A stretch of DNA of 64,000 bases from Balneolaceae bacterium (GCA_017643365.1 JAEPNO010000004.1:141085-205084); one strand, 5' to 3'. Shown: positions 10,658 to 46,372, numbered from the stretch's first letter. Made by a program: numbers and translations. Notes: generated from the sequence alone by a model not told the origin.

Positions 10658-10661
10658 GAAA

Positions 10662-17501: not shown

Positions 17502-17560
17502 ATCACGATTGGATTTCCGCCAATGATAAGGATATTTTGACGCCCGAATAATCAAAGTTT

Positions 17561-18004: not shown

Positions 18005-18009
18005 ATAGA

Positions 18010-18264: not shown

Positions 18265-18265
18265 T

Positions 18266-18517: not shown

Positions 18518-18534
18518 GAGATTGTTATTTAATA

Positions 18535-18552: not shown

Positions 18553-18614
18553 ATATAGTGTAATATTTTGGTTTTGGGAAGGAGTGGATTTTATTGGTTG
18601 AAGATTACATTACT

Positions 18615-18833: not shown

Positions 18834-18978
18834 GATAATAATAATGGTATTAATTCAATTTTAACAATTATTTAAGAATAATCATTGACTATCATTAAAT
18901 AGAAAATAAAAAAATTTAATGTAAGTAGTAGTGTTGAGCTTGATCTAACTATTAGATAGAAACCAAGTAAATGAAACG

Positions 18979-19422: not shown

Positions 19423-19459
19423 TAATTGGTTGAAATCCACATTTATTATCTATTTCTAA

Positions 19460-19820: not shown

Positions 19821-19899
19821 GAACGAATCGATTAACAAGCTCCGTAAACACTTCTGTTCATCTCCACTCATTAACTCAGATTCTAAGTGATATTTCCAA

Positions 19900-19907
19900 T
19901 ATATTTG
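19900..19907 (+). promoter_or_regulatory. candidate promoter -7 element of pyrC-tsaB
   Basis: TATATTTG fits the Bacteroidota-type -7 box TAnnTTTG, 32 bases ahead of the pyrC start. A possible -33 TTC/TTG lies near 19881. The spacing is approximate. Confidence 0.45.
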
Positions 19908-19939
19908 AGTCGAATTTTTAACGACGCTAAAAGCCAGCT

Positions 19940-21220: not shown

Positions 21221-21882
21221 TTCTCGCTTTTGAAACTTCCACCGATGTATGTTCGGTAGCTTATCAAAAAGTTGAAGGAGAAATCCACGAAAAGCGAATT
21301 CAAGGGCGGAGTGTACATTCCGATCATCTCTTTTTGTTTACCCAAGCTCTGATGGAAGAGCATGAATTCACCATCGACCAAATCGAAAATGTATTGGTGA
21401 GTAACGGTCCGGGATCGTACACAGGATTACGAATTGCGGCAAGTGCCATTAAAGGAATTTTCTTTGATTCGGAGGCCGAAATTTTAGCGACCAACACTCT
21501 GGCCGGGTTTGCTGCCTCACAACTTGAGAAATCTGGCAAAACGGTACATGCCATCATCGACGCACGGCGAACTCATGTGTATCATCAGCAATTTGTTATT
21601 AACGCCTCGATGGAAGCACAAAGTGAAATGAAAGTGCTGGAAATCGCTGCTTTTGAAGCTACATTAAATGAAAGTGATATTATTGTCGGAACCGGGTTGA
21701 ATCGATTGAATCCGACGAATTTGGAAGGCATCGAAACCTACAGCACCGATGTAATTAGCGCACAGAATTTAATTCAACTTTTCAACCATCAATCGGAAAG
21801 CGAGTTTTTCGAAAAAACAGACTTGGAAGCGCTAAGTCCGAATTACATAACCTCTAGCCAGGTTAATAATTCGAATATTTAA
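21217..21882 (+). CDS. tsaB: tRNA threonylcarbamoyladenosine protein TsaB
   Basis: A 221-residue ASKHA-fold protein, partner of TsaD/TsaE in forming t6A37 on ANN-decoding tRNAs. N-terminal ILAFETSTDVCSVAY and SVHSDHLFLF are typical, as is VSNGPGSYTGLRIAAS, the hallmark loop of TsaB. No metal-binding histidine pair of the TsaD type is present, as expected. Length is normal (220-240). It overlaps pyrC and is followed by accD after 46 bases. Confidence 0.92.
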   Translation: MILAFETSTDVCSVAYQKVEGEIHEKRIQGRSVHSDHLFLFTQALMEEHEFTIDQIENVLVSNGPGSYTGLRIAASAIKGIFFDSEAEILATNTLAGFAASQLEKSGKTVHAIIDARRTHVYHQQFVINASMEAQSEMKVLEIAAFEATLNESDIIVGTGLNRLNPTNLEGIETYSTDVISAQNLIQLFNHQSESEFFEKTDLEALSPNYITSSQVNNSNI

Positions 21883-21928
21883 TTAAGTGTATAAATCCCT
21901 ATTTTAGGCAAAATTTTAGAAGGATTTT

Positions 21929-22771
21929 ATGAGCTGGTTTAAACGAAAAGACGAAAACATACAAACCTCAACCAAAAAGGAAATGCCGGAAGGCGTTTGG
22001 GTTAAAGTTCCAACTACGGGAGAAACTATCCACCGTAGAGAACTCGAAGACAATAAGTTTGTAGATCCCCTCAGTGGTTATCATTTCCGAATTGGAAGTA
22101 GACAGTATTTCGAAATCATTTTTGATGAGGGTAAGTACAAAGAAATTGCCAGCGACATCATTTCTGATGATCCACTGGAGTTTACCGATCGTAAAAAATA
22201 CACCGACCGTTTGGCCGAAGCCCAGAAGAAAACGGGATTGTCGGATGCGGCGTTAATCGGTGTTGGTAAAATGAATGGCCTCGATTTTGTTGTAGGCTGT
22301 ATGGATTTCAGTTTTATCGGTGGCTCAATGGGCTCGGTTGTAGGCGAGCGACTGGCTCAAGGTGCAGAATATGCACTTAAGAATGGCGTTCCGTACATGA
22401 TTATTTCTCAATCGGGTGGAGCTCGCATGATGGAAAGTGTGTTAAGTTTGATGCAGCTTGCCAAAGTGTCTTCAAAACTGGCACAGCTCGACGAAGCCGG
22501 CATTCCTTATATCTCTTATCTCACAAACCCTACAACCGGTGGTGTAACCGCTAGTTTTGCAATGTTAGGTGATTTCAACGTGGCAGAACCCGGCGCATTG
22601 ATAGGATTTGCCGGACCTCGTGTGATTCGTCAAACCATTGGTAGAGATTTACCGGAAGGTTTTCAAACTTCAGAATACCTGCTTGAGCATGGGTTTTTGG
22701 ATTTAATCATCGAAAGAAATGAGATGAAAGAGAAGCTCACACAATTGCTTAAGATGGTTTTACACAAGTAA
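21929..22771 (+). CDS. accD: acetyl-CoA carboxylase carboxyltransferase beta subunit
   Basis: A 280-residue AccD, which with AccA transfers carboxyl from biotin to acetyl-CoA. The catalytic crotonase-fold core is intact (MDFSFIGGSMGSVVGER; ISQSGGARMMES; NPTTGGVTASFAMLGD; GFAGPRVIRQTIG). The N-terminal zinc ribbon has lost all four cysteines: the positions hold V27, T30, D46 and S49 in KVPTTGE and VDPLSGYHF. The rest of that domain is well kept, so this is loss of the metal rather than decay. Relatives in Bacteroidota, as I recall, share the loss. A good RBS (GAAGGAT) precedes the ATG. Confidence 0.93.
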   Translation: MSWFKRKDENIQTSTKKEMPEGVWVKVPTTGETIHRRELEDNKFVDPLSGYHFRIGSRQYFEIIFDEGKYKEIASDIISDDPLEFTDRKKYTDRLAEAQKKTGLSDAALIGVGKMNGLDFVVGCMDFSFIGGSMGSVVGERLAQGAEYALKNGVPYMIISQSGGARMMESVLSLMQLAKVSSKLAQLDEAGIPYISYLTNPTTGGVTASFAMLGDFNVAEPGALIGFAGPRVIRQTIGRDLPEGFQTSEYLLEHGFLDLIIERNEMKEKLTQLLKMVLHK

Positions 22772-22784
22772 TAGCCTGTCTGCA

Positions 22785-22818
22785 TTGTAACGAAGGCGGA
22801 TTAGGGGAGTCGTTACAA
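22785..22818. repeat. 8-bp inverted repeat before the peptidase gene
   Basis: TTGTAACG at 22785-22792 and CGTTACAA at 22811-22818 are exact inverted copies with 18 bases between, lying in the 67-base gap between accD and the DPP IV gene. It could be a regulator site or a weak hairpin; no U tail follows, so a terminator is unlikely. Confidence 0.4.
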
Positions 22819-22838
22819 AGAACTAAAAAGTAGTATTT

Positions 22839-24998
22839 ATGCGAAAAACATTACACTTATGTATTGCGCTGGTTTTTTGTGCCAGCATTTCATTATCAGC
22901 ACAAGATAGAAAGCCCATCGAGTTTGATCATATTTTTGATGGCACATTCTCACCAACTACCATCAATAATGTGCGTTGGATGAATGATGGCCGTTTTTAC
23001 TCGGCTTCGGATGGACAAACCATAACTCGCTTCAATATCACTAATGGTGAGTCGGAAGTTATTTTTGATGGTTCAAATTTTGAAGACCTCCAAGTTCAAG
23101 GCTATGAATTTTCGGCCGATGAAAACCTAATCCTCATCGAAACTGATGTAGAACAGCTTTGGCGCAGATCAACCAAAGCAAACTACTTTATCTACAATCG
23201 CTCGGAAAACACGGTGCAAAAACTAACCGAGAGCGACGAAAAACAACAATATGCTGAACTGAATGCTGATGGCGATCGCGCGGCATTTGTTCAAAACAAC
23301 AACCTCTATTGGGTGGATTTAACTACCGGTGAAGAATTCCAGATTACCGAAGATGGAGAATTTAACTCCATTATTAATGGTGCCGCTGATTGGGTATATG
23401 AAGAAGAATTTGGCTTTGCGAAAGCATGGTTTTGGTCGCCACGAGGAGATAAGATTGCTTTCTATCGATTTGATGAAAGCAACGTAAAGCAGTTTACGAT
23501 GGAAACCTGGGGAGAGCTTTATCCCGAGGAAGTTCGTTTCAAATATCCCAAAGCCGGTGAGGAAAACGCAATTGTAAGTATCCACGTGTTTGATATTACA
23601 ACAGGCGAAACTATCACAATGGATATTGGTGAAGAGACCGATCAGTATATCCCAAGAATTAACTGGACAAAGAACAACAACTTGTTGGCTATCCGGCGCA
23701 TGAACCGACTTCAAAATAAAGAAGAGTTATTGTTTGCGGATGTTTCTACCGGCGAGACGAATGTTATGCTTACCGAGGAAAGTGAAACTTGGCTGGATGT
23801 TCACGATGATCTGATGTTTTTAGATAACGGAAAGCAATTTCTAACTACATCTTCTCGAACAGGATACAATCATGTGTATTTGTATAAAATGGATGGAGAA
23901 GAAATCCGGCAGATCACAAAAGGCGAGTACGATGTAACAGAAATCATCGGTTTTGATGAACGTCGCCACAATTTGTACTACGTGAGTACGGAAGTTTCGC
24001 CATTGGAGCGCCATTTTTATCGGATACGAGTTGATGGTCGTCGTAAACGAGCCATGACCGAGGAAAACGGTTGGTATTCCATCAACATGAGCGGTGATTT
24101 TAAATATTACATCCAGTCATATTCTGATTACAACAAACCACCGGTAATCACCTTACACGAAGGTGGAGGAAAGCAAGTTCGCGTACTGGAAGACAATGCC
24201 GATGTTGTTGAAAATATGAATGAATTTGCACTTCAAACCAAAGAGTTTTTGGTGATGGATGTGAATAGTGAACAATTGAATGCATACATGATAACCCCGC
24301 CCGATTTTGACGAGAATCAAGAATATCCGGTGTTGATGTACGTGTATGGCGGTCCGGGAAGCCAAACGGTGACTCGGGCTTTCGAATACGGTCAACGCCC
24401 GATGTGGCATCAATACCTGGCAAATCAGGGCTATATTATCGTTTCTGTTGACAACCGAGGAACCGGAGCTCGCGGAGAAGCATTCAAAAACCAAACCTAT
24501 TTACAGCTTGGAGTTCTCGAAACGGAAGATCAGGTTGAAGCAGCCCGACAAATTGCTGATCTCGCGTATGTGGATGCAGATAGAATTGGAATTTGGGGAT
24601 GGAGTTACGGCGGATTTATGAGTACGAATGCCTTAGCTCAAGGGAATGATGTATTCAGCACAGCCATAGCCGTTGCACCCGTTACGCATTGGAAATATTA
24701 CGATACCATTTACACCGAGCGATTTATGCGTACTCCGCAAACTAATCCCGAAGGCTATGAAGCCGGATCGCCCATCAACTATGTGGATCAAATAACAGGT
24801 GAGTACTTACTCATTCATGGTACCGGTGATGACAACGTACATTATCAAAATGCGGTAATCTTAGTCGAGGAATTGATTAAGCATGATATTCAGTTCGAAA
24901 CGATGTACTATCCGAATCGAAATCATGGAATTTACGGTGGTAATACTCGTCGCCACCTTTGGAAGTTGATGAGCGACTTCATTTTAGAAAAACTTTAA
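22839..24998 (+). CDS. dipeptidyl peptidase IV (S9B family)
   Basis: A 719-residue exported serine peptidase that removes X-Pro dipeptides. A signal peptide (residues 1-21, ALVFCASISLSAQ) is followed by a beta-propeller. The Glu-Glu substrate-binding motif of DPP IV is present (ADWVYEEEFG near residue 186). The C-terminal alpha/beta-hydrolase domain has the nucleophile GWSYGGFMS, the Asp in HGTGDDNVHY and the His in NRNHGIYGG. All functional residues are intact. It is a periplasmic or surface enzyme for peptide use. Confidence 0.93.
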   Translation: MRKTLHLCIALVFCASISLSAQDRKPIEFDHIFDGTFSPTTINNVRWMNDGRFYSASDGQTITRFNITNGESEVIFDGSNFEDLQVQGYEFSADENLILIETDVEQLWRRSTKANYFIYNRSENTVQKLTESDEKQQYAELNADGDRAAFVQNNNLYWVDLTTGEEFQITEDGEFNSIINGAADWVYEEEFGFAKAWFWSPRGDKIAFYRFDESNVKQFTMETWGELYPEEVRFKYPKAGEENAIVSIHVFDITTGETITMDIGEETDQYIPRINWTKNNNLLAIRRMNRLQNKEELLFADVSTGETNVMLTEESETWLDVHDDLMFLDNGKQFLTTSSRTGYNHVYLYKMDGEEIRQITKGEYDVTEIIGFDERRHNLYYVSTEVSPLERHFYRIRVDGRRKRAMTEENGWYSINMSGDFKYYIQSYSDYNKPPVITLHEGGGKQVRVLEDNADVVENMNEFALQTKEFLVMDVNSEQLNAYMITPPDFDENQEYPVLMYVYGGPGSQTVTRAFEYGQRPMWHQYLANQGYIIVSVDNRGTGARGEAFKNQTYLQLGVLETEDQVEAARQIADLAYVDADRIGIWGWSYGGFMSTNALAQGNDVFSTAIAVAPVTHWKYYDTIYTERFMRTPQTNPEGYEAGSPINYVDQITGEYLLIHGTGDDNVHYQNAVILVEELIKHDIQFETMYYPNRNHGIYGGNTRRHLWKLMSDFILEKL

Positions 24999-25009
24999 TG
25001 TTCACAGTT

Positions 25010-25054
25010 ATCCCGGAGCTGATTCGGGATCTAGATTCCTGCCCTAGAGGAATC
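25010..25054 (+). other. two small hairpins between DPP IV and obg
   Basis: ATCCCG (25010-25015) pairs with CGGGAT (25025-25030), and GATTCCT (25034-25040) pairs with AGAGGAATC (25046-25054). They fill most of the 72-base gap ahead of obg. Neither is followed by a clear U tract; they may slow read-through or shape the obg leader. Confidence 0.35.
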
Positions 25055-25070: not shown

Positions 25071-26087
25071 ATGCGCTTCGCAGATTACGCTAAAATTTAT
25101 GTAACCGCAGGAAAGGGTGGAGATGGCTCCGCTCATTTCCGGAGAGAAAAATATATCCCACGTGGAGGTCCTGATGGCGGTGATGGCGGAAAAGGTGGAA
25201 GCATTGTTTTAAAGGGAAATCCACAATTAAACACCATTCTGGATTTACGCTACAAAAAATTCATCAAGGCAAAACCGGGTGAAAATGGTGCGGGAAACAA
25301 GAAAACGGGTGCCGGTGGGGAAGATATCATCCTTTCAGTACCTCTTGGAACGGTAGCTTACGATGCTGAATCTAGAGAGCGATTAGGTGAAATCACCGAG
25401 CAAGATCAGGAATTGGTTATTGCCGAGGGAGGCAGAGGTGGTTTAGGAAACTGGCACTTCAGAAGTTCTACAAACCAAACTCCACAGTTTGCCCAGGAAG
25501 GAAAGCCGGGCGAGGAACGAGTGGTTGAACTCGAGTTAAAACTGATTGCTGATGTCGGCTTAGTTGGATTTCCAAATGCAGGAAAAAGCACGTTATTATC
25601 AGCTTTATCTGAGGCTAAGCCAAAGATTGGGGATTATCCTTTCACAACTTTAGAACCCAATTTAGGAGTGGTAAAATTCAGCGATTACCGCAGTTTTGTT
25701 ATGGCTGATATTCCCGGAATTATCGAAGAAGCCCATCAAGGTAAAGGATTGGGAATTCAGTTTTTAAGGCACATCGAACGTAACAATGTGCTGCTCTTTA
25801 TGGTTGCTGCCGATACCGATATCGAATACGAATATCAGGCGTTGATAAACGAGCTGAAAGCCTACCGATCTGATCTTTTAGAAAAGCCTCGAATCCTTGC
25901 TATCACTAAGATGGATTTAAAACAAGGCTTTAAGTTAGAAGAAGAGTTGCATTTTGAGGACGAAATTCCCGTTATTCCTATTTCATCAGCCACGGGGCAT
26001 GGGGTGGATGAATTAAGGGAAACTCTTTGGGCGGCCATACAAGATGCAAAACAAATCGAAGACAACCAGGACTCTACTGGCGCTTAG
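25071..26087 (+). CDS. obg: Obg/CgtA family ribosome-assembly GTPase
   Basis: A 338-residue Obg GTPase acting in 50S assembly. The glycine-rich Obg fold covers residues 1-158 (FRREKYIPRGGPDGGDGGKGG; GAGNKKTGAGGEDI). The G domain follows, with G1 GFPNAGKST, G2/G3 YPFTTLEPNLG and DIPGIIEEAHQGKGLG, and G4 ITKMD. There is no C-terminal OCT domain, as in many Obg proteins of this length. The 3' end overlaps the dprA start by 44 bases. Confidence 0.94.
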   Translation: MRFADYAKIYVTAGKGGDGSAHFRREKYIPRGGPDGGDGGKGGSIVLKGNPQLNTILDLRYKKFIKAKPGENGAGNKKTGAGGEDIILSVPLGTVAYDAESRERLGEITEQDQELVIAEGGRGGLGNWHFRSSTNQTPQFAQEGKPGEERVVELELKLIADVGLVGFPNAGKSTLLSALSEAKPKIGDYPFTTLEPNLGVVKFSDYRSFVMADIPGIIEEAHQGKGLGIQFLRHIERNNVLLFMVAADTDIEYEYQALINELKAYRSDLLEKPRILAITKMDLKQGFKLEEELHFEDEIPVIPISSATGHGVDELRETLWAAIQDAKQIEDNQDSTGA

Positions 26088-27174
26088 CTTAGTTCCGGGA
26101 TTTGGACCGAAACGGGTAAAGCAGCTTCATCAACATTTTAAAGGCGATTTAGAAGGACTTTTTGAGCGTTCTAAACGCGAGCTGCGTGCGGTTGATGGAA
26201 TAGGAGAAGCTTCAGCTCTCACATTGCTTTCATTTGACGATTGGGACACCGTAGACGAAATTATCCTGAAAACGGAAACGCTTAAGGCAGAAATTCTAAC
26301 GATCGCCGATCCTCAATATCCTGCACTTCTAATGCAAATTTACGATCCACCGTCGGTACTTTGGTATAAAGGTGATCCGGACGTTTTGAGTGAGCCGGGC
26401 ATCGCGGTGGTTGGAACAAGAAATACGAGCGCTTACGGACGTAAAACCACGAAGAAATTAGTTCAAAGTCTAGTAGAAGCCGGGCTATGCATAAACAGCG
26501 GTTTGGCGTTAGGAATCGATGCAGCGGCTCATTCTGCCGCACTGGAAGCTGAAGGTAAAACCGCTGCAGTGTTGGGATCGGGAATCGATTGGGTGTATCC
26601 ATCAGAAAACCGAAATTTGGCGAATGCTATAGTGAAATCGGGTGGGATCGTTCTAACCGAATATCCACCGGGAAGTAAACCGGATGCCGGTAATTTCCCG
26701 GTTCGTAATCGCATTGTAAGCGGTTTGAGCTATGGTACTTTGGTTATGGAATCGGGAATTCAGGGTGGAAGTATCATCACCGCTGAGTTGGCACTAGATC
26801 AAAACAGAGAAGTATTTGCCATCCCGCATACCATCGAAAACCCAAGTGGAACCGGGTGCAATTATCTCATCAAAAATGGATCGGCGAAGCTCGTTCAAAC
26901 TGTAGATGATATCCTGGAAGAACTTCCGGTTGGGGATCATTCAGATCAAAGTTCGGTGAGTATTAAGGAGCCCAAAATTAGTAGCTGGAAGGAACAGGAA
27001 TTAGATGATCTAAGTGTTGCCATTTGTACGAAACTCGAAGCAAAAGAATACCAAATTGATACCTTAGCCGATGAACTCGAAGTACCAACAAGTCAGCTTT
27101 TAGTGGCGATGCTAACATTAGAGATGAAGCAAATCATCGTTCAAAGAGCAGGAAAGATATTTGGGTTAAGGTGA
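26044..27174 (+). CDS. dprA: DNA-processing protein DprA
   Basis: A 376-residue DprA/Smf protein that loads RecA on incoming single-stranded DNA. A helix-hairpin-helix-like N-terminus (LVPGFGPKRVKQL) is followed by the Rossmann core: VVGTRNTSAYG, SGLALGIDAAAHSAAL, VLGSGIDWVYPSEN, FPVRNRIVSGLS, ESGIQGGSIITAELALD and NPSGTGCNYLI. A C-terminal winged-helix domain ends the protein. The ATG lies 44 bases inside obg; no later in-frame start would leave the N-terminal domain whole. Presence of dprA fits a lineage capable of natural uptake of DNA. Confidence 0.93.
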   Translation: MQNKSKTTRTLLALSLVPGFGPKRVKQLHQHFKGDLEGLFERSKRELRAVDGIGEASALTLLSFDDWDTVDEIILKTETLKAEILTIADPQYPALLMQIYDPPSVLWYKGDPDVLSEPGIAVVGTRNTSAYGRKTTKKLVQSLVEAGLCINSGLALGIDAAAHSAALEAEGKTAAVLGSGIDWVYPSENRNLANAIVKSGGIVLTEYPPGSKPDAGNFPVRNRIVSGLSYGTLVMESGIQGGSIITAELALDQNREVFAIPHTIENPSGTGCNYLIKNGSAKLVQTVDDILEELPVGDHSDQSSVSIKEPKISSWKEQELDDLSVAICTKLEAKEYQIDTLADELEVPTSQLLVAMLTLEMKQIIVQRAGKIFGLR

Positions 27175-36184: not shown

Positions 36185-36496
36185 TTAACTAAAGTGCTTA
36201 AGAATTTCTTCATGGATTGCATTTTTGTCCTGTCTGCTATCAATTAGATTCAAAATGTGAATACAATCTGATTGAATTTCATAGAGTAATATGGAGTGCT
36301 TCGTTATTACACACTTCCTAATTTTATGATCAATTGTACTAGTAGGGTAGATTTGAGGATTTTCTACTATAGTTTGAACTCTTGAATTTAGCTTTTCAAG
36401 AAATCTTTTTTTCGAGTTTTCAGAAAATTCTTCAACTAGGTATTCACAAAGTTTTTCTAACTTATAAACACTAAGTTTTGAAAATAAAACCTTCAT
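36185..36496 (-). CDS. RelE/ParE family toxin
   Basis: A 103-residue protein with the RelE/ParE fold: helical hairpin (YKLEKLCEYLVEEFSENSKKRF), then strands KIRKCVITKHSILLYEI and IHILNLIDSRQDKN. The arginine in the last strand and the DSRQDK ending are typical. The target (gyrase or ribosome) is not clear from sequence. It overlaps its putative antitoxin by 4 bases (ATGA), toxin second. Confidence 0.75.
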   Translation of the reverse strand: MKVLFSKLSVYKLEKLCEYLVEEFSENSKKRFLEKLNSRVQTIVENPQIYPTSTIDHKIRKCVITKHSILLYEIQSDCIHILNLIDSRQDKNAIHEEILKHFS

Positions 36497-36711
36497 GCAA
36501 GTCTCTTATAAACAGACTTCCAAGACTCTGATTCACCCTCTTCGAATTGTTTACGACTAATTTCAATCTCCGCCTTTTCCTCTTCAGATAAATCAAGCCA
36601 AAAATCCGGATGCTCGTTTTTTAGGGTATTAAGAATCTTACCTAAAAGTTCTTGGCTTTCTGTTTCGAGAATGCGTTTTGCAAGTTCAATTTTTAAAGCT
36701 TGAATATTCAT
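36493..36711 (-). CDS. antitoxin partner of the ParE-like toxin
   Basis: A 72-residue, mostly helical acidic protein (MNIQALKIELAKRILETESQ; LSEEEKAEIEISRKQFEEGE). The last part is the standard toxin-wrapping helix of RelE/ParE antitoxins, and the first helix resembles the N-terminal region of the same class. The start at 36711 was chosen over 36756 because the extra 15 residues are atypical. It is translationally coupled to the toxin. Confidence 0.7.
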   Translation of the reverse strand: MNIQALKIELAKRILETESQELLGKILNTLKNEHPDFWLDLSEEEKAEIEISRKQFEEGESESWKSVYKRLA

Positions 36712-36914
36712 AATTTTCAATTTACGGATTTCTCGATTTGATTGCGATAGTAGCAAAAATTGAGTTCTAGAATTTAAAGAAAGTGAATGTTACTAAATAC
36801 TGTATGTGAAACTGTGATTCCAGAATATCGATAGGTAAAATTGAATCTGGTTCTGTTTTAATGTTTCACAAAGAATTTAATTGGAATGAAATAAGTTAGG
36901 AGACTCAACTCTGC

Positions 36915-37199
36915 TTATTTAAAATCTTGCCGACCAATTATGGCCATTATTTCCACAATGTTATCTTCATCATTTATTCTGTAATAAATACTATCTACGC
37001 CACAAACACATCGTCTATATCCAGGTTTAATAAAATCTACTGCTGCATTGGATAGAGGTTGACTTGCAATCATTTCAAAGTATTCGAAGAAAGTATTGAA
37101 ATATTTATCTGCTTGTTTTACTCCGAACCTCTGTACGCCATATTGATGTATTCGAATAAGATCCTCTTTAGCGGCATTGCTAAGTCGGTATCTAGCCAT
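36915..37199 (-). CDS. parE: ParE-type toxin
   Basis: A 94-residue ParE toxin: RYRLSNAAKEDLIRIHQYG is the standard N-terminal helix, with GVKQADKYFNTFF, the strand GYRRCVCGVDSIYYRI and the C-terminal IMAIIGRQDF. ParE proteins of this type usually poison DNA gyrase. It overlaps the 3' end of parD by 8 bases, antitoxin first. Confidence 0.88.
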   Translation of the reverse strand: MARYRLSNAAKEDLIRIHQYGVQRFGVKQADKYFNTFFEYFEMIASQPLSNAAVDFIKPGYRRCVCGVDSIYYRINDEDNIVEIMAIIGRQDFK

Positions 37200-37431
37200 T
37201 AAGCAATCTCTTAGATTCAGCTAAGATTTCTTTTTGTGATTGAGAGCTAAACCCACTTTGCTCAGCTTTTTCAAGTTTTAGTTTGATCAGGTCAATCTCT
37301 CTTTGTTGCATTCTAGCTTGCCTAACCAAATCGTTCACTAATTCACTCTTGCTTGAATACTCCTTACTCTGAACTTGAGCCTTTAGCCACTCGTCGTTTG
37401 GCTCGGTAAATGAAATACTTTGTCGTCCCAT
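37192..37431 (-). CDS. parD: ParD-type antitoxin
   Basis: A 79-residue ParD antitoxin with an N-terminal ribbon-helix-helix (QSISFTEPNDEWLKAQVQS; YSSKSELVNDLVRQARMQQ) and a C-terminal helical toxin-binding tail (EKAEQSGFSSQSQKEILAE). It opens the operon and should repress it. Together with the neighbouring pair this makes two ParE-type modules within 1.3 kb. Confidence 0.88.
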   Translation of the reverse strand: MGRQSISFTEPNDEWLKAQVQSKEYSSKSELVNDLVRQARMQQREIDLIKLKLEKAEQSGFSSQSQKEILAESKRLLNG

Positions 37432-37857: not shown

Positions 37858-38922
37858 ATGAGTAACGATGTAGACAAGCCAATTCCTGTTAGCCCTCATA
37901 AAAACTCACTGCAGTTTCGTAAATCTGCTGATGTTAGCCTCACGATTGAGGCTTTAATGGAGGGTAATCATGTTATCATCGCGGATTATTATAGCAGTGG
38001 ATTGTTGCTACTTAAGGAGTTGAAGAAGCATCTTAACCAGAGCTTGCCCAATAAGAGCTTTCTTGAGCAAAGGGAATATCGAGCTGAATATCAAAAACTG
38101 TCGAACCGCATTTTGATGGAGGTTAAAAATCATTCGTTGGCTGTAAAGAAATCTCCGGCAATCGGTTGGTTGAAAAAATTGTATCCGGAATCCAACCAAT
38201 TTTATTTAACACTCCCACAAATTCAAGGCCTGAACAGCGCCTGGCAATGGTACATTAAGGGAGTTTCAATTCCTGTACTTCGGAATAAAATTCATCCCTA
38301 TTACGGAGTGTATTTCCCCACTCGTTTTGATCATTTGATTGTTTTTGATAACTGGCTGAAACGGTATTCAGGACCAAAAAAGTCAGCAATGGATATTGGG
38401 ATCGGAAGTGGAGTTCTTTCATTACAAATGATGAAATATGGTTTTCAAAAGGTGTATGGCACCGATGTTAACACAAATGCGATAATTGGTTTCAAAGAGT
38501 TTATGGGGGATACGAAGCTCTCAAGAAAGATTGAATTAGATAATGGAAACCTCTTTGGTAAGTGGGATCAAAAAACCGAATTGATTGTAATTAATCCACC
38601 TTGGTTACCTAAATCGCATGACTTAAACAGGCTGGACGAGGCCATGTACTACCACGACACTCTTTTTGAGGAGTTCTTCTCCGGTGCCAAACAGCGACTC
38701 CTGCCCGACGGTAAAATCGTACTATTATTTTCCAATTTAGCACAATTAACCGGAGCGGCAGAAGAGCATCCCATAGAAAAAGAACTGGCAGAAGGGGGGC
38801 GGTTCAAATTGGAAAATTGCTATAAAAAAAGAGCGAAATCGGCTTCAAGTAAAACGAAACGGAACCAGACTTGGCGTGATTCTGAAGAGGTGGAACTTTG
38901 GGAGTTATCGAGGCTAGAGTAG
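37858..38922 (+). CDS. class I SAM-dependent methyltransferase (PrmC/HemK-like)
   Basis: A 354-residue protein. The C-terminal half is a Rossmann methyltransferase: motif I AMDIGIGSGVLSLQM near residue 177, the acidic residue in GTDVNTNAI, and NPPWLPK near 242, an N-methyltransferase NPPY/W motif as in PrmC, RsmC or DNA/protein amino-methylases. The N-terminal 170 residues are helical with no match. The substrate is probably RNA or protein; DNA is less likely because no target-recognition domain is visible. It stands alone just before the restriction cassette. Confidence 0.7.
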   Translation: MSNDVDKPIPVSPHKNSLQFRKSADVSLTIEALMEGNHVIIADYYSSGLLLLKELKKHLNQSLPNKSFLEQREYRAEYQKLSNRILMEVKNHSLAVKKSPAIGWLKKLYPESNQFYLTLPQIQGLNSAWQWYIKGVSIPVLRNKIHPYYGVYFPTRFDHLIVFDNWLKRYSGPKKSAMDIGIGSGVLSLQMMKYGFQKVYGTDVNTNAIIGFKEFMGDTKLSRKIELDNGNLFGKWDQKTELIVINPPWLPKSHDLNRLDEAMYYHDTLFEEFFSGAKQRLLPDGKIVLLFSNLAQLTGAAEEHPIEKELAEGGRFKLENCYKKRAKSASSKTKRNQTWRDSEEVELWELSRLE

Positions 38923-38983
38923 CTGGTTGGTGAGACCTAATTTAAAACTATGTTTCTGCTCGTTTTGGTGAGAAACGGTTTGG

Positions 38984-39017
38984 CTATGCGCAGTATCCCG
39001 AAGGGTATTGCGTATAG
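38984..39017. repeat. outer hairpin at the left edge of the restriction cassette
   Basis: CTATGCGCAGTA (38984-38995) pairs with TATTGCGTATAG (39006-39017) through two G-T pairs. After one bulged T an inner CCC/GGG closes on a GAA loop. That makes about 15 pairs in 34 bases, with the pairing kept through G-U-type positions, as in a folded single strand. Five bases separate it from the TGTTGTGCCCC end. Confidence 0.65.
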
Positions 39018-39021
39018 GTTT

Positions 39022-39130
39022 TGTTGTGCCCCGTTTTTATTTTTCTTTTCAGTCTGTCAGCGTTGGCGTGAAAGCTCTTTGCAACCGCAGGAACGAGGAT
39101 TGCAATGTGCTTGAACTGAGCGTTGGCTTT
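39022..39130. repeat. left edge repeat of the restriction cassette
   Basis: Outer inverted end TGTTGTGCCCC at 39022-39032, a T-rich stretch, then a conserved block: AGCTCTTT at 39073-39080, 23 bases, AATGTGCTTGA at 39104-39114, and GGCTTT at 39125-39130. The same words occur at identical spacing at 44686-44743 on the other side of the operon. The block also contains a small stem (TTGCAACC with GGATTGCAA, 39079-39106). The last bases overlap the res stop codon. Confidence 0.75.
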
Positions 39131-41768
39131 ACATTCCACCAATCAATTCTTTTGCTTTGTCCAACGTATATGCTCCGTCTACTTCTTTCTTGTCAAAAAT
39201 CATAAAGTAAGCAAAGTCATTCCCTGCTTGTTTTTCCCATTCGTTTCCAAGTCGGCATTTTGCAGCACTGTCGGCATTGTCCAAATGGTCGCCTTTAGTT
39301 TCCACTAAAATCGTTTTACCTGACTTTGTCCGCATAATAAAGTCAGGGTAGTGGTTGGCTTTAAATCCATTGATGTAAAATCCTTTTCCACGTTCCAAAT
39401 TCCTATGCCAAAACTCAATGTTAGAAGATGTTCCGAGTTCCATTGCTACACGTTCTTCAAAGTTGTTCATTGAACCTTCTTTTTCGTAAAGTGAATTACC
39501 AATCGAAGAACCTGTATTTCCTGGAACAATCTCCTTACTCAAATTCCAATTTCCTTTGGTATTGATTCGCTTAGACTTGATTAAATCCATAAAACGACCT
39601 TCAGCATACGAGTCCGCTAATTGTCTGATTTTTGATTTGATTTTGTCTGTATAACTCCATTTGCGAACCAAAATATCTCTTAGCTGCTCTGTGTTCATAC
39701 TATTCAGAACACGACCGATGTAAACCTTGATTTCTTGGTCAGGAATCGGATACATATTTCCGATAATCTGCATCATTTGATGAGTGATGTCTGTAATCTG
39801 GTTTTCTTTTGGTTTTGCCAAAATGTATTCTGCAATTGGGTCTTTTACCAAGTTGTCTTCAATCTTCGTGAATGAAGGTCTGTACTCGTTTTTCTTGGCT
39901 TCTTCTAAGTCGATTTTATACAAGTCAGAAGAGATTTGGTCGAAGTCTATTTTGATGTCTTCGTCTGAAAGTTTGAAGTCTTTCAGCAAAGATTCTCGGT
40001 TTAGTAATTCTTCGTCAGTTCCAAAAATGTCGCTTGCGGTAACTTTGATGAAGAACTGCGGAAACTCAATTTTGTCTATAAACTCCTTGTACGCTTCTTT
40101 TACTTTGTAGCGTTTTACTTTATCACCCATTTCTTGAAAAATATTTTCGTCAACAGGCTGTTGCTCCTGTTCTTTAATTTGTTCTTCTAACTGTCGATTT
40201 TGTTCTTCCGCAATAGCTTCAATTTCATCAATTACCGTTGTTGTTTCTGGTTCTTCTTCATCTGCATTCGGGTCAAACGTTACTCGATTTGTGTCGATGT
40301 TTTCATCTTCTACTTGCTCCGTTTGTTGCTCTGGGAAAAGGAAAGATTCAACTGGGTCTGCAGTAACCGTTTTCTTTTCTTCTTCGGTCATCTTATCAAC
40401 TTTGCGATAATCTTTTTCGCTAAATCCTGATTCTTGCAAGCCTTTTACAATGCTTTGCAATGTCTCATTGAATTTGGCAGATGCCGTTAACACGTATGAA
40501 AGGTTTAACTGAAATGACTTGTGCCTTTGCACGTAAGGTTGACGCAATACACGACCTAAAATTTGCTCCACATCTACTGCACTTGATTTGTCTGCTAATG
40601 ATGCCAAGATGTAAGCAAATGGACAATCCCAACCTTCTTTCAAGGCGTTAATGGTGATGATGTAGCGAACTTCACATTCCTTGCTCATCAAATCAATGCC
40701 TTTCAATTCGTCAATGTTGGCAGTCTTGATTTTGATTTGATTTTCAGGAATACCCAAACTCAACAACTGTTCTTTCAACTTCTCGAAAGTCGTATTGTCG
40801 TCATTGGTTTTGGGTTGTGCTTGAAAAAGTACAATGGGTCTGATGTATTTACCGCCTTCGGCTTCTTGCTTTTTTGCAAGGTTTTCCAACTTGCGTTGCA
40901 AATGCAAAGCATTGTTGATGACTTCCGTTTTATCGTGATTATTGTAAACGATTACAGGAAGCTTTACCATATGTTCCTTTTTTAATTCAATAGCAGGAAC
41001 AAGGCTTACAATGTTGCTATTGTCTTTTGGTGTTGCAGTTAAATCAAGAATGAAAGAAGGATTTAGATTTTTGAGCATATCCACACTCAAATCGCTTTCG
41101 GCATTGTGGCTTTCATCCACTACCAAAACGGGATTGAGATAACGCAAAACATTGATAAGTGCGGTATCATCCACACCGTCTAAAATATGTTCGTTGCTTT
41201 TGAATTGCGATAAAAAGGCTTCTAACTGACCGTTTTCTTGGTAAACCTTTCTGTCGTCCTTGTTTCTTGCCCGCAAGCTGGCAAAACTCATTACAAAAAT
41301 GCTCAACTGGTCTTTTACCACCGTTGGGTTAAAGTTCGAGCCTTGCAACAAATCTTCTTTTTGATAGACTTCTACTCGGTGATTGAAAAGTGTATTGAGT
41401 TTTTGTCTGTACGGATGCTCTGGATTGGAAAGTGCATCAACCGTTTGTTGCAGAAGGTTACTCCAAGGCACTAACCAAATTACGGCTTTTGGTTTGCTGG
41501 AATCATAAGCCTGAAAAATGGAATGTAAAGCATTTACGGCAATAAAGGTTTTACCACCTGCTGTTGGAACTTTCACACAAACGTGTGCTGCATTCGGGAT
41601 GTTATTTTTATAGGGCTGCATACCTGTACCATCCAACGGATTGTACGGACCAATTTTATCTTCCCAATATTGGTTGAAGGCTTTGCCTAAATCTTTTTGC
41701 TCTTGAACATAGTTCAAGTATTCCTCAAGATTTTCAATTACTTTCTGTTGATAGCTCTTTAATTCCAT
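39129..41768 (-). CDS. res: Type III restriction endonuclease, Res subunit
   Basis: An 879-residue helicase-nuclease. Motor motifs: KVPTAGGKTF near 66-75 (Walker A), VVDESHNAES (DEAH-type box), LDLTATPK (motif III) and the C-terminal RecA-fold strings LKEGWDCPFAYILA and EQILGRVLRQPY (motif VI). A PD-ExK nuclease lies at the end (PDF 808-810, ETK 823-825). All are intact. With Mod it would translocate or slide and cut DNA bearing head-to-head unmodified sites. It starts 3 bases after the mod stop, last in the operon. Confidence 0.94.
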   Translation of the reverse strand: MELKSYQQKVIENLEEYLNYVQEQKDLGKAFNQYWEDKIGPYNPLDGTGMQPYKNNIPNAAHVCVKVPTAGGKTFIAVNALHSIFQAYDSSKPKAVIWLVPWSNLLQQTVDALSNPEHPYRQKLNTLFNHRVEVYQKEDLLQGSNFNPTVVKDQLSIFVMSFASLRARNKDDRKVYQENGQLEAFLSQFKSNEHILDGVDDTALINVLRYLNPVLVVDESHNAESDLSVDMLKNLNPSFILDLTATPKDNSNIVSLVPAIELKKEHMVKLPVIVYNNHDKTEVINNALHLQRKLENLAKKQEAEGGKYIRPIVLFQAQPKTNDDNTTFEKLKEQLLSLGIPENQIKIKTANIDELKGIDLMSKECEVRYIITINALKEGWDCPFAYILASLADKSSAVDVEQILGRVLRQPYVQRHKSFQLNLSYVLTASAKFNETLQSIVKGLQESGFSEKDYRKVDKMTEEEKKTVTADPVESFLFPEQQTEQVEDENIDTNRVTFDPNADEEEPETTTVIDEIEAIAEEQNRQLEEQIKEQEQQPVDENIFQEMGDKVKRYKVKEAYKEFIDKIEFPQFFIKVTASDIFGTDEELLNRESLLKDFKLSDEDIKIDFDQISSDLYKIDLEEAKKNEYRPSFTKIEDNLVKDPIAEYILAKPKENQITDITHQMMQIIGNMYPIPDQEIKVYIGRVLNSMNTEQLRDILVRKWSYTDKIKSKIRQLADSYAEGRFMDLIKSKRINTKGNWNLSKEIVPGNTGSSIGNSLYEKEGSMNNFEERVAMELGTSSNIEFWHRNLERGKGFYINGFKANHYPDFIMRTKSGKTILVETKGDHLDNADSAAKCRLGNEWEKQAGNDFAYFMIFDKKEVDGAYTLDKAKELIGGM

Positions 41769-41771
41769 AAT

Positions 41772-43415
41772 CTAAAATCTTGTGATGTCTCTTGGTATTT
41801 TCTTGAAAATGATGTTCTTCTTCGCCATAAACTCTTTTGGCAATAGGCAGTTGTCCGCATAAATAATGTATTGCTCACCTTTGGTTTTTATGAGTTCCAA
41901 AGCATCATAATCTAAAGTGGTCAAACGGTCTTTCTCGTAAATGAAGTAGTAGGCAGTATCTTCTTTTTTGCCCAAGAAGTAATTCTCTGCATTGGGTTCT
42001 GTGAACGAGGTACGAGTTTCTGAGAACCAAATGTATTCTCGGATTTTTGGCAAGCCGACTTCTTCATTTAGATTTTCGTTGTCGTCAAATAATGGCAAGC
42101 CGAGTTCATAGAAGTCAAATGCTCCGCCTGTGCCTTCCACTTTTTTATTGCCTGAACCATAACCTTTAGTTACACGCTTTACTCTTTCTGCCGTAATCTC
42201 ATTGGCGTAATCTTCCATTTCTACCAAAATGAATTTACGATTGCCACCATCTTGCTTGTTTAAGTTCAATACTGCGTGTGCTGTTGTACCTGAACCTGAA
42301 AATGAATCAAGTACGATTGAGTTCTTTTCACTCCCAATTTTTAAAAGAAATTCGATTAGGGAATATGGTTTTGGATAGTTGAAAATGTCTTTACCAAATA
42401 TTTGCTTCAACACTTTTTTGGCACCTTCATTTGTATCAACGTTATCTTCAACTTTATTTATTGTTGTATTTAAATATTTGTCTTTGAATAAATTAGTAGG
42501 TGCTTTAAATGATTTATCTGCTCTTAAAAACCTTATAGAAAACTTGTCACTTTTAATAATGAACTCTGTTCCTTTTTGAATTTCTGCATCAACGGTATCT
42601 TGAACCCACTTAAACTGTGCCGTAAGCTCAAAATCTACGTTTGAATAACCATCTTCAATGATTATGTCGTTATGAAGAAATGCTTTATCATATTGCCCTG
42701 ATTCATATTTGCCATCAGGCAACTTGAAGTAAACTTTATCTTTTGGGAAGAGTATCTTTGCTTCAGGATTTCCTGAATTTAGAAGTGGGGCATCTCCACC
42801 ATCAGAAAGTTCAGCATTGTATTTTAAATTATCTTTCTTTTTTTCATAGCAAACAACATACTCAACCGTTTTTCTTGATTTGTTTGCTAAACTTGGTGGC
42901 GTTGATGTTTTTGTCCAACAGAAGTATTCGACAAAATTATTTCTGCCGAAAATCTCGTCCATCAACAAACGTAGATGTGCTAATTCGTGGTCATCAATCG
43001 AAATAAATATTATTCCATTTTCACTCAAAAGTTTATGAAGCATCTTTAGCCTTGGGTACATCATACACAACCATTTGTCGTGTCTGCTCAAATCATCTCC
43101 GTCTTTACCAACTACTTCACCTAACCACTTCTTTATTTTTGGGTGGTTGACGTTGTCATTGTACACCCAATTCTCATTTCCTGTATTGTAAGGTGGGTCA
43201 ATGTAGATGCACTTTATTTTTCCTTCGTATTCGGGTAATAGACTTTTTAGTGCTTCAAGGTTGTCTCCGTGTATGATTTTGTTTCCGCTGTTAGTTGGTT
43301 CGGTTTGTTCGCCTTTGTCTGCTGTAAAACCGTATTTATGTTCCAATACTCGGTATGGTACATCTTGGTGGTGGCTCACCACCTTGTCTTTTCCTATCCA
43401 ATTGAGTGTTGGCAT
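41772..43415 (-). CDS. mod: Type III DNA methyltransferase, Mod subunit
   Basis: A 547-residue beta-class adenine-N6 methyltransferase. The catalytic DPPYNTGN lies at 73-80 and the SAM-binding LDSFSGSGTTAHAV near residue 375, in the beta-class order. The target-recognition region lies between them (about 150-340), and a C-terminal part of about 150 residues completes a normal Mod. It both methylates and gives the site to Res; the recognition sequence cannot be predicted. No simple-sequence repeat that would make it phase-variable is visible. It starts one base after the 5'-nucleotidase stop. Confidence 0.94.
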   Translation of the reverse strand: MPTLNWIGKDKVVSHHQDVPYRVLEHKYGFTADKGEQTEPTNSGNKIIHGDNLEALKSLLPEYEGKIKCIYIDPPYNTGNENWVYNDNVNHPKIKKWLGEVVGKDGDDLSRHDKWLCMMYPRLKMLHKLLSENGIIFISIDDHELAHLRLLMDEIFGRNNFVEYFCWTKTSTPPSLANKSRKTVEYVVCYEKKKDNLKYNAELSDGGDAPLLNSGNPEAKILFPKDKVYFKLPDGKYESGQYDKAFLHNDIIIEDGYSNVDFELTAQFKWVQDTVDAEIQKGTEFIIKSDKFSIRFLRADKSFKAPTNLFKDKYLNTTINKVEDNVDTNEGAKKVLKQIFGKDIFNYPKPYSLIEFLLKIGSEKNSIVLDSFSGSGTTAHAVLNLNKQDGGNRKFILVEMEDYANEITAERVKRVTKGYGSGNKKVEGTGGAFDFYELGLPLFDDNENLNEEVGLPKIREYIWFSETRTSFTEPNAENYFLGKKEDTAYYFIYEKDRLTTLDYDALELIKTKGEQYIIYADNCLLPKEFMAKKNIIFKKIPRDITRF

Positions 43416-43416
43416 A

Positions 43417-44379
43417 TTATTTCTCTTTTACTTTCTTCGGTTCAACAATAATTTCCTTCTCGTAATTTTTGAGAACAGAATTCGATTTATACAACACTCG
43501 TCCGCAAGGTATTTTCTTACTCGAATCGCTCAAATGTGTATGCTGGTCGTCAAAAAAGATGTGAGCACCAAAGGCTTCTAATACTTTTGCTTTTGGCAGT
43601 CCGCCCATAAAGTAGGCTTCATCCACATAAACATTCCATTTTCTAAGCGTTTTGATAACTCGCATATGACTTGGCGAATTCCGTGCGGTTACAATTGCAA
43701 TACGAAGTGGTGAAAGTTCTTTTTCTACAGGTAAATCGTCTTGAATGTCTGATAGCTTTCTTAGTAGAACTGCAAAAGGTCCATCATTCAAGGGAACATC
43801 TTCGTTTTCCTTTTCGTGCTTGTGGAATGCTTCTATGCCTTGCTCCTTATAGATTTGTTCAGATTCTTCCGAAAAGACAACAGCATCGGCATCAAATGCG
43901 AATTTTACTCGGTCTGTTTCAGGTTCAAAATTTTCTGGTGGGTCGTAAATCAATGCAGTTGCACAGTTTGCCGTATCAATGATTTTTTGAACATCACTTT
44001 CATCACGAGAAAGGAAAAGGTCAACATCAAAAGCGTCAATGAAAGGTGCAAGTGGATCGCCACCCGAGAATGCCCATCTTGTAATTGGAAGTTTGAAATG
44101 TTCAATTGCCTTTAAAACTCTGACTCCTGTTTCAGGGCTGTTCCTTGACATCACTACAACTTCTACAATTGGTTTTTCAACGTGTGTATTTAGTTTTAGT
44201 AATGCTTCAACCAATGGGAAAGCAGTTCCTTTTTCGAGTAGCTTATCTTCATTGGCTAATTGGTATTCCCGAAAACCACGAATATTCTTTTCTCTAAAGA
44301 TTTGTTCTTCTTCCTCGAGATTGAAAAGTGCTCTCGAAGAAACACCAACCACTAATATTTTTGAAAAGTCTACTGGCAT
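43417..44379 (-). CDS. cytosolic 5'-nucleotidase I (cN-I) family protein in R-M operon
   Basis: A 320-residue HAD-fold nucleotidase of the cN-I/PF06189 family. The N-terminal GVSSRALFNLE and VVVMSRNSPETGVRVLKAI are family strings. The catalytic site is complete: nucleophile motif FDADAV at 162-167 (Asp163/165), VTARNSPS with Thr231, a Lys in GGLPKAKVL, and HIFFDDQ with the acidic pair at 277-278. The core matches animal NT5C1A closely. It would release nucleosides from (d)NMPs. It sits between an XRE regulator and mod with gaps of 0 and 1 base, so it belongs to the restriction operon. A defence role, such as nucleotide depletion, is inference. Confidence 0.85.
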   Translation of the reverse strand: MPVDFSKILVVGVSSRALFNLEEEEQIFREKNIRGFREYQLANEDKLLEKGTAFPLVEALLKLNTHVEKPIVEVVVMSRNSPETGVRVLKAIEHFKLPITRWAFSGGDPLAPFIDAFDVDLFLSRDESDVQKIIDTANCATALIYDPPENFEPETDRVKFAFDADAVVFSEESEQIYKEQGIEAFHKHEKENEDVPLNDGPFAVLLRKLSDIQDDLPVEKELSPLRIAIVTARNSPSHMRVIKTLRKWNVYVDEAYFMGGLPKAKVLEAFGAHIFFDDQHTHLSDSSKKIPCGRVLYKSNSVLKNYEKEIIVEPKKVKEK

Positions 44380-44577
44380 CTATTTTTCCTTGTTTGATAT
44401 TATTAATTCCTTCACGTCAACGTCCAAGACTTCGGCAATCTCCATCAAGGTTTCCAAGCGTGGTTGTTGTCGATTTTGTGCATAGGCATTTACCATGTTG
44501 TAGCTTTTCCCGAGCTTCTCAGCCAACCAAGTCTGCTTGATTCCTTTCTGTTCTAACACTTCCTTAATTCTGTTCAT
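44380..44577 (-). CDS. XRE-family regulator of the restriction operon
   Basis: A 65-residue protein that is essentially one Cro/CI helix-turn-helix: KEVLEQKGIKQTWLAEKLG, YNMVNAYAQNRQQPRLETL and MEIAEVLDVDVKELI. It is first in the operon, directly abutting the nucleotidase gene. Its size and place are those of a C protein, the small regulators that delay restriction until methylation is established. C-boxes should be upstream, between 44578 and the cassette edge; I could not pick out a convincing palindrome. Confidence 0.85.
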   Translation of the reverse strand: MNRIKEVLEQKGIKQTWLAEKLGKSYNMVNAYAQNRQQPRLETLMEIAEVLDVDVKELIISNKEK

Positions 44578-44658
44578 TTCAGACGTTGTTTATTCAGCCA
44601 CTAAAATAGTCAGTTTATTTTGAATATCTCAAAAAACTGTGTATAAAATGTAAAGATT

Positions 44659-44764
44659 CTGTTCGGGTGGCGGTGGGGAAGGGCGAGCTCTTTTGCTGCG
44701 GAGGCACGGAGCAGGAAATGTGCTTGACCGTGCGGTGGGCTTTCTTTTTTAATGGGGCACAACA
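44659..44764. repeat. right edge repeat of the restriction cassette
   Basis: AGCTCTTT at 44686-44693, 23 bases, AATGTGCTTGA at 44717-44727, and GGCTTT at 44738-44743 repeat the left edge in the same orientation and with identical spacing. By eye about 38 of 58 bases agree, with no gaps. The outer end GGGGCACAACA at 44754-44764 is an exact inverted copy of the left TGTTGTGCCCC. The block is more G-rich than its surroundings. Confidence 0.75.
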
Positions 44765-44784
44765 TTAGCATAACACGTACATTG

Positions 44785-45109
44785 TTCATGTTATCCCAGT
44801 TATATCATTAAGTATTATGATTGTTATCCCATCAAATAACTTGAATAGCATGAAGAAAAGCGAATCAAGTATAAAGTACAACCATCAGTTTATTCTTTAG
44901 CGTCTTAGCTATTGAGAATTGAATTCTAAGTTTCATTCCTAATAACGAGCATAGGTTACCCATCTGTCGGGTGAATACCCGGCTGATGGAATTAACTTGA
45001 TGCTAAGAATCGGTGGTTTATCTCATTTTCCATCACCCTGCTTGTAGCGAAATGATGGGTTGGGCTCAAAACTCATCCCCACAAAAAAAGCCCACAGTTA
45101 ACGGGCTTT
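44785..45109. repeat. long direct repeat, copy 1 (left of DUF6090 gene)
   Basis: Starts TTCATGTTATCCCAGTTA and runs through a family B hairpin pair (44960-44989 and 45030-45058) to the terminator at 45087-45109. Bases 44785-45058 match 45911-46184 at equal length (274 each), and 44960-45109 match 46274-46423 at equal length (150 each), with only scattered differences. The DUF6090 gene lies between the copies. No other gene is seen from 44578 to 45141. Confidence 0.85.
45087..45109 (-). terminator. terminator after the DUF6090 gene
   Basis: AAAGCCC at 45087-45093 pairs with GGGCTTT at 45103-45109; on the minus strand it is followed by a U-rich run. It is a near copy of the terminator behind the C-terminal processing protease gene (46401-46423). 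Confidence 0.8.
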
Positions 45110-45141: not shown

Positions 45142-45861
45142 TTATTCTAAATAATTTGATATTGAGTTTATACATTCCATTGTTGATATGTAAATTCTTT
45201 CATAAAATGATTTCCATCTCATCACTCTGGATTTTCTTAAAAGTAAGTAATCCTTAAAGTCTCTAGAATTTATTGTCCCCTCATAATTTAGTGGGCTTGA
45301 ATATAAGTCAAACGCCTCTGAGGTTGAATCAACTTGTACTATAAAGTGTGATTTTTGTAATGGGATTGATCTGAATTCACGAAAATCTTTGTCTTCAAAT
45401 GATAAAAGTTCCAAAAAAAATTTAGATCGATGGTAATGATTATTAATTAATTTTCTGAGTTCATCGTCAAAGGGTATATTTATATTTCCACTTTTAATTG
45501 TCTCAATAGCTTTGGTATTTTGAACTAAATAAACTCCGCCAAATAAGCTTATCATTTCTGGATTGTTTTTTAATAAGGTGGGATCATTTGTAATTTGATC
45601 TATAGATTCTTCAAATCGTTCAATTCTTCTAAATTGGGTCTGAATAAGAGTAGAATCACTTTTTAAGTCTTCAAGTACCTCAATAAGCATTTTGTGTTCA
45701 TACAACTTCGCTTTTTTATTTTCATTCCAGTTATTAATCTGAAGCGCAATGAGAATCCCGATGACAACTAAAAGAATCTCTCCTATTGCATATTTCAGAT
45801 ACTTTCCAATATTATTTTTTGAAAGCAAGTTTTGCCTAATTTTTCTGAAGAATTTTATCAT
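45142..45861 (-). CDS. DUF6090 family membrane protein
   Basis: A 239-residue protein with the standard opening of the DUF6090 family: FFRKIRQNLLSKNNIGKYL followed by a single membrane helix IGEILLVVIGILIALQI and NNWNE. The remainder is a helical, charged domain expected outside the inner membrane. Function unknown; such genes occur in many copies in Bacteroidota and often near repeats. Its A+T-rich coding sequence, and its position between long direct repeats, point to recent arrival or duplication. Confidence 0.85.
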   Translation of the reverse strand: MIKFFRKIRQNLLSKNNIGKYLKYAIGEILLVVIGILIALQINNWNENKKAKLYEHKMLIEVLEDLKSDSTLIQTQFRRIERFEESIDQITNDPTLLKNNPEMISLFGGVYLVQNTKAIETIKSGNINIPFDDELRKLINNHYHRSKFFLELLSFEDKDFREFRSIPLQKSHFIVQVDSTSEAFDLYSSPLNYEGTINSRDFKDYLLLRKSRVMRWKSFYERIYISTMECINSISNYLE

Positions 45862-45910
45862 TGGTTGGCGGTTTGTTATAAAGAATCACAACATAGGTAA
45901 ACTCACACAA

Positions 45911-46372
45911 TTCATGTTATCCCAGTTACATCATTAAGTATTATGATTGTTATCCCATCAAATAATTGGAATAGCATGAATAAAAGCGAATCGAGAGTAA
46001 AGTACAACCATCAGTTTATTCTTTAGCGTTTTAGCGATTGGGAAATGATTACTTAGTTTCATCCCTATTAACTCGAAAAAGCAATCCATCTGTCGGGTGA
46101 ATACCCGGCTGATGGAATTAACTTGAAGCAAAAAGTGGACGGTTTATCTCATTTTCCATCACCCCGCTTTCAGCGAAATGATGGGGAGAAATCACTGAAA
46201 GGCTTAAAAAGTAACTGGCATTCATTGTAAACCTACGGAGCAGAGTTTGAAAACAAGTTTATCTGAAAGCTATCCATCTGTCGGGTGAATACCCGGCTGA
46301 TGGAATTAACTTGATGCTAAGAATCGGTGGTTTATCTCATTTTCCATCACCCCGCTTTCAGCGAAATGATGG
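45911..46372. repeat. long direct repeat, copy 2, with two family B pairs
   Basis: 45911-46184 repeats 44785-45058 including one hairpin pair (46086-46115 and 46156-46184). After an 89-base spacer a second hairpin pair follows (46274-46303 and 46344-46372), which continues colinearly into the terminator like copy 1. So copy 2 carries one extra hairpin pair. The gap from 45862 to 46450 contains no gene. Confidence 0.85.

Follow-up and report, generated by a model that had tools for sequence, protein, structure and literature searches.

The restriction operon of the window, as we call the whole 64,000-nt stretch of Balneolaceae DNA that was analysed, is very probably a gene cassette of an integron-type system of the Bacteroidota which employs another recombinase and other sites. 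Read 5' to 3' on the coding strand, the locus would comprise an attI-like site, the start box TTGTGCCCC, a 5' hairpin termed B, the genes for an HTH regulator and for restriction-modification, a 3' B hairpin, the end box GGGGCACAAC and the cassette's own attC-like hairpin. We infer that a tyrosine recombinase related to IntI, without the extra domain of the latter, would act enzymatically on a single-stranded substrate and thereby excise and insert the cassette via its folded bottom strand.

The cassette and its ends

All four genes of the operon are located on the minus strand and are enclosed by a pair of inverted 11-mers. The first gene encodes an XRE/Cro HTH regulator of 65 aa (44380..44577; PF01381, 4.1e-12), followed by a 5'-nucleotidase family protein of 320 aa (43417..44379; PF06189, 3e-119), the DNA methyltransferase Mod of 547 aa (41772..43415; PF01555, 4.2e-38) and the restriction enzyme Res of 879 aa (39129..41768; PF04851, 9.7e-17), and the adjacency of Mod and Res marks a type III restriction-modification system. 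A search of plasmids with the cassette returned diverged relatives of Mod and Res only, none of which spanned 80% of the cassette. To the left of the locus, at 36185-37430, there are two ParE-like toxin genes with a small ORF upstream of each.

An earlier note on this DNA had described direct repeats of the form AGCTCTTT-N23-AATGTGCTTGA-N10-GGCTTT on either side of the operon and exact inverted 11-mers outside them, and had likened the whole to an integron cassette bounded by inverted ends. The letters and positions of the repeat blocks (39073-39130 and 44686-44743) were verified; the two 58-mers agree at 38 of 58 positions, while the best among 60 random pairs of 120-bp stretches reached 34, and the window contains exactly two instances of AATGTGCTTGA-N-GGCTTT, compared with none in 100 shuffles. 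The inverted 11-mers at 39022-39032 and 44754-44764 are exact as well. Taken alone, this pair might plausibly have arisen by chance and is not significant by itself, as the 6-kb stretch around the edges contains 14 exact inverted 11-mer pairs; this explanation is ruled out by comparison with homologous copies. Two contigs of a single Cytophagales MAG, L054 and L123, carry the left and the right end of the same kind of cassette. The window is 89% identical to the former from 39021 rightwards and 88% identical to the latter up to 44766, and there is no similarity beyond either edge. The left box, TGTTGTGCCCC on the plus strand (39022..39032), thus lies where the homology to L054 ends and forms the 3' end of the mobile block, and the right box, TGTTGTGCCCC on the minus strand (44754..44764), where homology to L123 ends, forms the 5' start of the cassette. 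Since the similarity to an independent copy of the operon breaks off there on both sides, the inverted 11-mers are, on sequence comparison, the ends of a mobile unit. Accordingly, the direct repeats do constitute a layer of their own, but an inner one that is separate from the ends: the unit of insertion is set by the outer 11-mers, which serve as the recombination boxes, and not by the repeats.

Cassettes of this kind have moved between lineages. A type II restriction cassette of 3,017 nt is 97.2% identical between Roseivirga and Winogradskyella, with the same kind of ends and with unrelated flanks. Within the two best matched cassette pairs both flanking hairpins differ; the alignment of L106 with L103 appears to take in the left hairpin. 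Further copies, which the earlier note had proposed to look for, were found in the genome itself and, by a pattern scan of public genomes, at more than 70 Bacteroidota loci with such blocks, and other accessory genes do lie between two blocks elsewhere. The same note had expected empty single units at orthologous sites. At the orthologous locus of a member of the same genus (G002) the operon is indeed absent, the locus measuring 2.6 kb instead of 7.5 kb and adjoining a relic of a recombinase start; it is not empty, however, being occupied by two other genes and an intervening site. A collapse of the two repeats into one unit has a candidate product in a single B element (L062) that is half left block and half right block, although this hybrid is degenerate and does not stand at an orthologous site.

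Outer sites, recombinase and attI-like region

Beyond the 11-mers, an imperfect hairpin was found whose two ends are AAC and GTT. This attC-like recombination site, or A-site, as present 3' of the operon (38966..39033, plus strand), includes the box at 39022-39032 and was recognized by the R2 covariance model, by its fold and by its homologues. It scores 68.9 bits with R2, in the training set of which the window site is included, and homologues were also recovered by an independent DNA search. As single-stranded DNA, the site is predicted to fold with -10.3 kcal/mol on the plus strand (z -2.9) versus -5.7 on the minus strand, and the favoured plus strand of the window is the bottom strand of the cassette. 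Across the Bacteroidota, the outer hairpins come in a short form, in which the conserved AAC and GTT are about 55-60 nt apart, and a long form of about 120, and they are arranged in arrays of tandem cassettes on one strand. Within such arrays, the six bases that follow GTT where a cassette starts and the six that precede AAC where it ends are complementary at all six positions in 31 of 45 consecutive pairs, compared with 2 of 80 for the two boxes of one site and 1.9% of random pairs. These complementary ends follow the logic of integrons, because both ends of a cassette derive from one site. On the bottom strand, G-T outnumber A-C pairs by 313 to 135 when sites are pooled, a count to be read with the somewhat G-T-favouring site scan in mind, and the main ORF has the standard orientation in no more than 55 of 76 cassettes, a list that includes some duplicates. 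While the outer sites share the imperfect hairpin of attC, their boxes deviate from those of attC (RYYYAAC / GTTRRRY), the GTTRRRY consensus fitting only 3 of 124 boxes. The earlier statement that the sequences do not fit attC is thus correct with regard to the box consensus, but not to the architecture, which is attC-like.

The sites used in several of these tests stem from a custom scan that lacked a clean control count, the CAA/TTG control triplets of the first scan giving 118 against 134. For this reason, the unfiltered scan was dropped as evidence in favour of covariance models and box complementarity. The filters applied across many genomes lose weak sites. At one locus (L195:2983, 4240 and 13221), three cassettes share one 90-nt end (TGAATTTAGTCCAAGTTGGGATGAG...TTCTTCTTCAAC), which represents a separate kind of recurrent cassette start.

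Inverted ends, the lack of an internal transposase and the occurrence in many genomes would equally be expected of a transposon or mobile insertion cassette that is non-autonomous, bounded by terminal inverted repeats and mobilized by a DDE transposase in trans. Such an element would not, however, form tandem arrays with one hairpin-shaped site between neighbours, nor carry complementary ends that are specific to each cassette and differ from one cassette to the next; moreover, no target duplication was seen at the edges, and it is a tyrosine recombinase that is linked to the sites. We consider this explanation hardly credible.

The recombinase, of 280-590 residues, stands beside the sites where IntI would be expected. 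The catalytic R-K-HxxR-H-Y is invariant in its clade, which is cleanly separated from XerC/D by score (at least 277 bits versus at most 199). It is without the approximately 42 residues of the IntI-specific region, and the spacing from KDR to HxxR amounts to 61-62 residues versus 103 in IntI. In a tree rooted with Xer as outgroup, the new recombinases group with IntI (100/100), with IntI monophyletic and the new recombinases paraphyletic to it at weak support. The association between the recombinase and the sites is seen at several scales. An R1 or R2 site occurs within about 1.5 kb at 12 of 19 loci of the new recombinase versus none of 17 IntI or XerC/D loci. Among 59 relatives, sites are present in 8 of the 9 genomes with the recombinase versus 10 of the 50 without it (p=1.5e-4); no site was found in one recombinase-bearing relative (G050). 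In a set of 198 Bacteroidota genomes, the recombinase was found in 68, the sites in 78 and both in 47 (p=9e-10; both, recombinase only, sites only and neither: 47/21/31/99); genomes with only one of the two are thus common in either direction.

In contrast, the presence of sites is not associated with that of IntI, as they occur in 7 of 26 relatives with IntI versus 11 of 33 without it (odds ratio 0.74). IntI itself scores above the curated cut-off in 26 of the 59 relatives and in 2 of 24 site-bearing genomes, and not in the genome under study, where the best score is 106 bits compared with a cut-off of 265. Since neither the IntI-specific domain nor the box consensus was found on testing, the system is not classed as an IntI integron. 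IntI was also dismissed as the enzyme acting here, being absent from this genome and having loci without these sites, and the attC of IntI arrays in relatives proved to be a different site from the outer sites. Relatives with a full IntI belong to the same family and order (G002, G005 and G014 among them), and some have classical attC arrays (L135). The operon might still be taken for the remnant of an ordinary IntI integron (CALIN) with attC sites that have merely diverged: the overall logic is the same and full IntI genes are at hand among the relatives. Yet the missing association, the IntI loci devoid of such sites, the deviating boxes and an attI-like copy that matches the other recombinase leave this reading with scant plausibility.

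The attI-like copy bears on the position of the cassette within the integron-type system. Of 15 matches to the site models in this genome, most belong to a single same-strand array that ends just upstream of the recombinase; on contig C44, about 13 sites extend from 5977 to 25026, followed by the recombinase at 25539-26381. The window cassette is found on the same contig, at a distance of 154 kb. It is flanked by an attI-like region in which the start of the recombinase has decayed (44759..44892, plus strand); over 134 bp, this copy is 80% identical to the recombinase start and the sequence upstream of it (G000:C44:25449-25582; E about 1e-28). A second copy (45888..46018, plus strand; 79% identity, E 2e-25) adjoins a DUF6090 gene. 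The homology begins exactly at the cassette box, and the same edge is seen at the recombinases of two further genomes (G028 and G019). Judged by its sequence, the conserved region upstream of the recombinase is an attI-like site, which adjoins the integrase and at which cassettes are inserted, as indicated by the sharp edge at the cassette box in both window copies and in G028 and G019. As the homology starts at the box, the window cassette takes the first position at a duplicated attI-like region, the recombinase of which has decayed down to its first codons.

Several observations concern the surroundings of this region. The DUF6090 gene (45142-45861) lies between the two attI-like copies within a longer direct duplication, and a similar arrangement, a DUF6090-like gene enclosed by duplicated flanks, is present at L003 (110-1475). 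Additional attI-like fragments were noted in the genome (C51:140563, C3:3902, C24:22242 and C11:93485 of G000), two of these four on contigs with A-sites a few kb away, suggesting several relic platforms.

Inner hairpins and their cargo

The direct repeats correspond to a conserved stem-loop, B, composed of AAGC, TCT, a stem, a loop with AGGNACGR, a second stem strand, TGT and GCTT, and flanked by GCGTTGG-like words. The 3' (left) hairpin extends from 39060 to 39126 on the plus strand (GCGTTGG - AAGC-TCT-stem-loop-stem-TGT-GCTT - GCGTTGG) and the 5' (right) hairpin from 44669 to 44740 on the same strand (GGCGGTGGGG - AGC-TCT ... TGT-GCTT - GCGGTGGGC). The structure is established by covariation in 35 left and 45 right units; compensatory changes are found across all 80, and the G-T pairs fall on the plus strand. 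The internal loop TCT/TGT is invariant and is kept in the stem variants CATAC/GTATG, AAGGCAC/GTGCCTT and AAATTGC/GCAATTT, and a structural scan of 1.5 Mb revealed 50 TCT/TGT hairpins versus 0-5 for control triplets, the reverse-complement image excepted. Rfam models gave no match to the region 38800-45100 up to E 1. A function of B as a terminator was discarded, as by eye no consistent T-run accompanies the stem. A hairpin with a AGCTCTTT...AAATGTGCTTT motif was observed in several Bacteroidota past the terminator of a conserved gene and outside any cassette seen (L042, L064, L076, L085 and L115), possibly representing a related structured RNA.

B units are paired on one strand, 2.9-14.4 kb apart and just inside the cassette ends. 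As imperfect hairpins of the same orientation on both sides of the cargo, one per side and strand-specific, they resemble the ends of IS200/IS605 and REP elements, so that B might represent the left and right ends of a single-strand transposon of the IS200/IS605 or REP/RAYT type. However, the mobile block reaches past B to the outer boxes, the hairpins therefore not being its ends, and no Y1 transposase was noticed among the annotated cargo of the loci; a transposon of this type is very unlikely.

About two dozen cassettes with paired B units were examined, and all but one of them contained restriction-modification systems (type I, II, IIG or III), mostly headed by an HTH regulator. As the loci were picked for having B, these counts describe the cargo of B and not the share of restriction cassettes that have B. 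The exception is a mercury operon in the array of the same genome on C44 (L193:6107-9484), where a MerA-like reductase and an ArsR-type regulator lie within a B-variant hairpin pair; it rules out that B is exclusive to restriction systems. Among the best 25 families listed for 57 other cassettes with matched ends, there was no methyltransferase or restriction enzyme. In Marinoscillum (L163), a ZorA-like (Zorya II) protein and an SNF2-type helicase accompany the type III restriction system of a B-bracketed cassette of 14.4 kb.

The left shells of four genomes agree at 92-100% over about 50 nt in the outward direction, and the cargo switches abruptly right after GCGTTGGCT. Near-identical shells of this kind would fit a chromosomal hotspot at which homologous recombination between conserved flanks is the only means of exchanging restriction systems. 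As the sole explanation this is quite unlikely, given that cassettes occur at unrelated places, with unrelated flanks and with exact ends at the boxes; homologous recombination may hold for the exchange of the inner cargo without explaining the outer ends. The most probable role of B is that of a structural module at the bottom-strand ends of self-regulated cassettes with several genes and, at the same time, of a homologous shell for the exchange of restriction cargo; B may also have a regulatory or single-strand promoter role. More tentatively, and with considerable doubt, it might be speculated that the system operates at two levels: an outer integron-type platform with a second, non-IntI integrase family, and an inner TCT/TGT hairpin pair that would act on the single-stranded bottom strand and serve as a shell dedicated to restriction-modification and other self-regulated operons, such that complete defence systems would be swapped inside a constant shell.

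Relation to known systems

In a survey with the standard tool, Salinibacter ruber was the only member of Bacteroidetes proper for which a complete integron was detected (PMC9024848), and the phylum has been listed without detail in another account (PMC8618304). No description of the cassette system or of the hairpin pair was found in the open-access literature, to which our search was confined. If the integron-type reading is correct, the recombinase is present in about one third and its sites in about two fifths of the sampled Bacteroidota genomes, and search models, which demand IntI and a canonical attC, would have missed a large reservoir of cassettes. This reading would further account for the passage of complete restriction systems (types I, II, IIG and III) from one class of the phylum to another, define the exact ends of many orphan genes and supply a second integrase lineage with which to explore the requirements of single-strand cassette recombination.

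The closest curated family of the recombinase is XerA, the archaeal-type Xer (NCBIfam NF040815), with scores of 204-243 bits at a cut-off of 220, and its solved relatives are the XerC-like 4a8e, XerA 5hxy and IntI4 2a3v. Unlike XerA, the recombinase is linked to cassette arrays, and many members have an N-terminal extension of about 100 residues. Similar to a CALIN, a cluster of attC sites without IntI, the window cassette resides away from a complete platform; in contrast to a CALIN, its sites go with another recombinase clade that is present in the same genome. With the integron of IntI, attI and attC, the system shares a tyrosine recombinase that adjoins an attI-like site, orphan-rich cargo, tandem same-strand cassettes of about 0.2-1.6 kb with one folded site per junction, complementary cassette ends and folding of the bottom strand. 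It differs in that the recombinase is without the IntI insert, the boxes read GTT-R-N-N-N instead of GTTRRRY, and some cassettes are operons of 3-14 kb bracketed by B hairpins. In addition, the downstream attC of a classical integron travels with its cassette, whereas the flanking hairpins do not always appear to be inherited here. Restriction-modification and other defence genes are known from integron cassettes of Vibrio and of mobile integrons; here, by contrast, whole multi-gene systems together with their regulator are bracketed by a dedicated hairpin pair.
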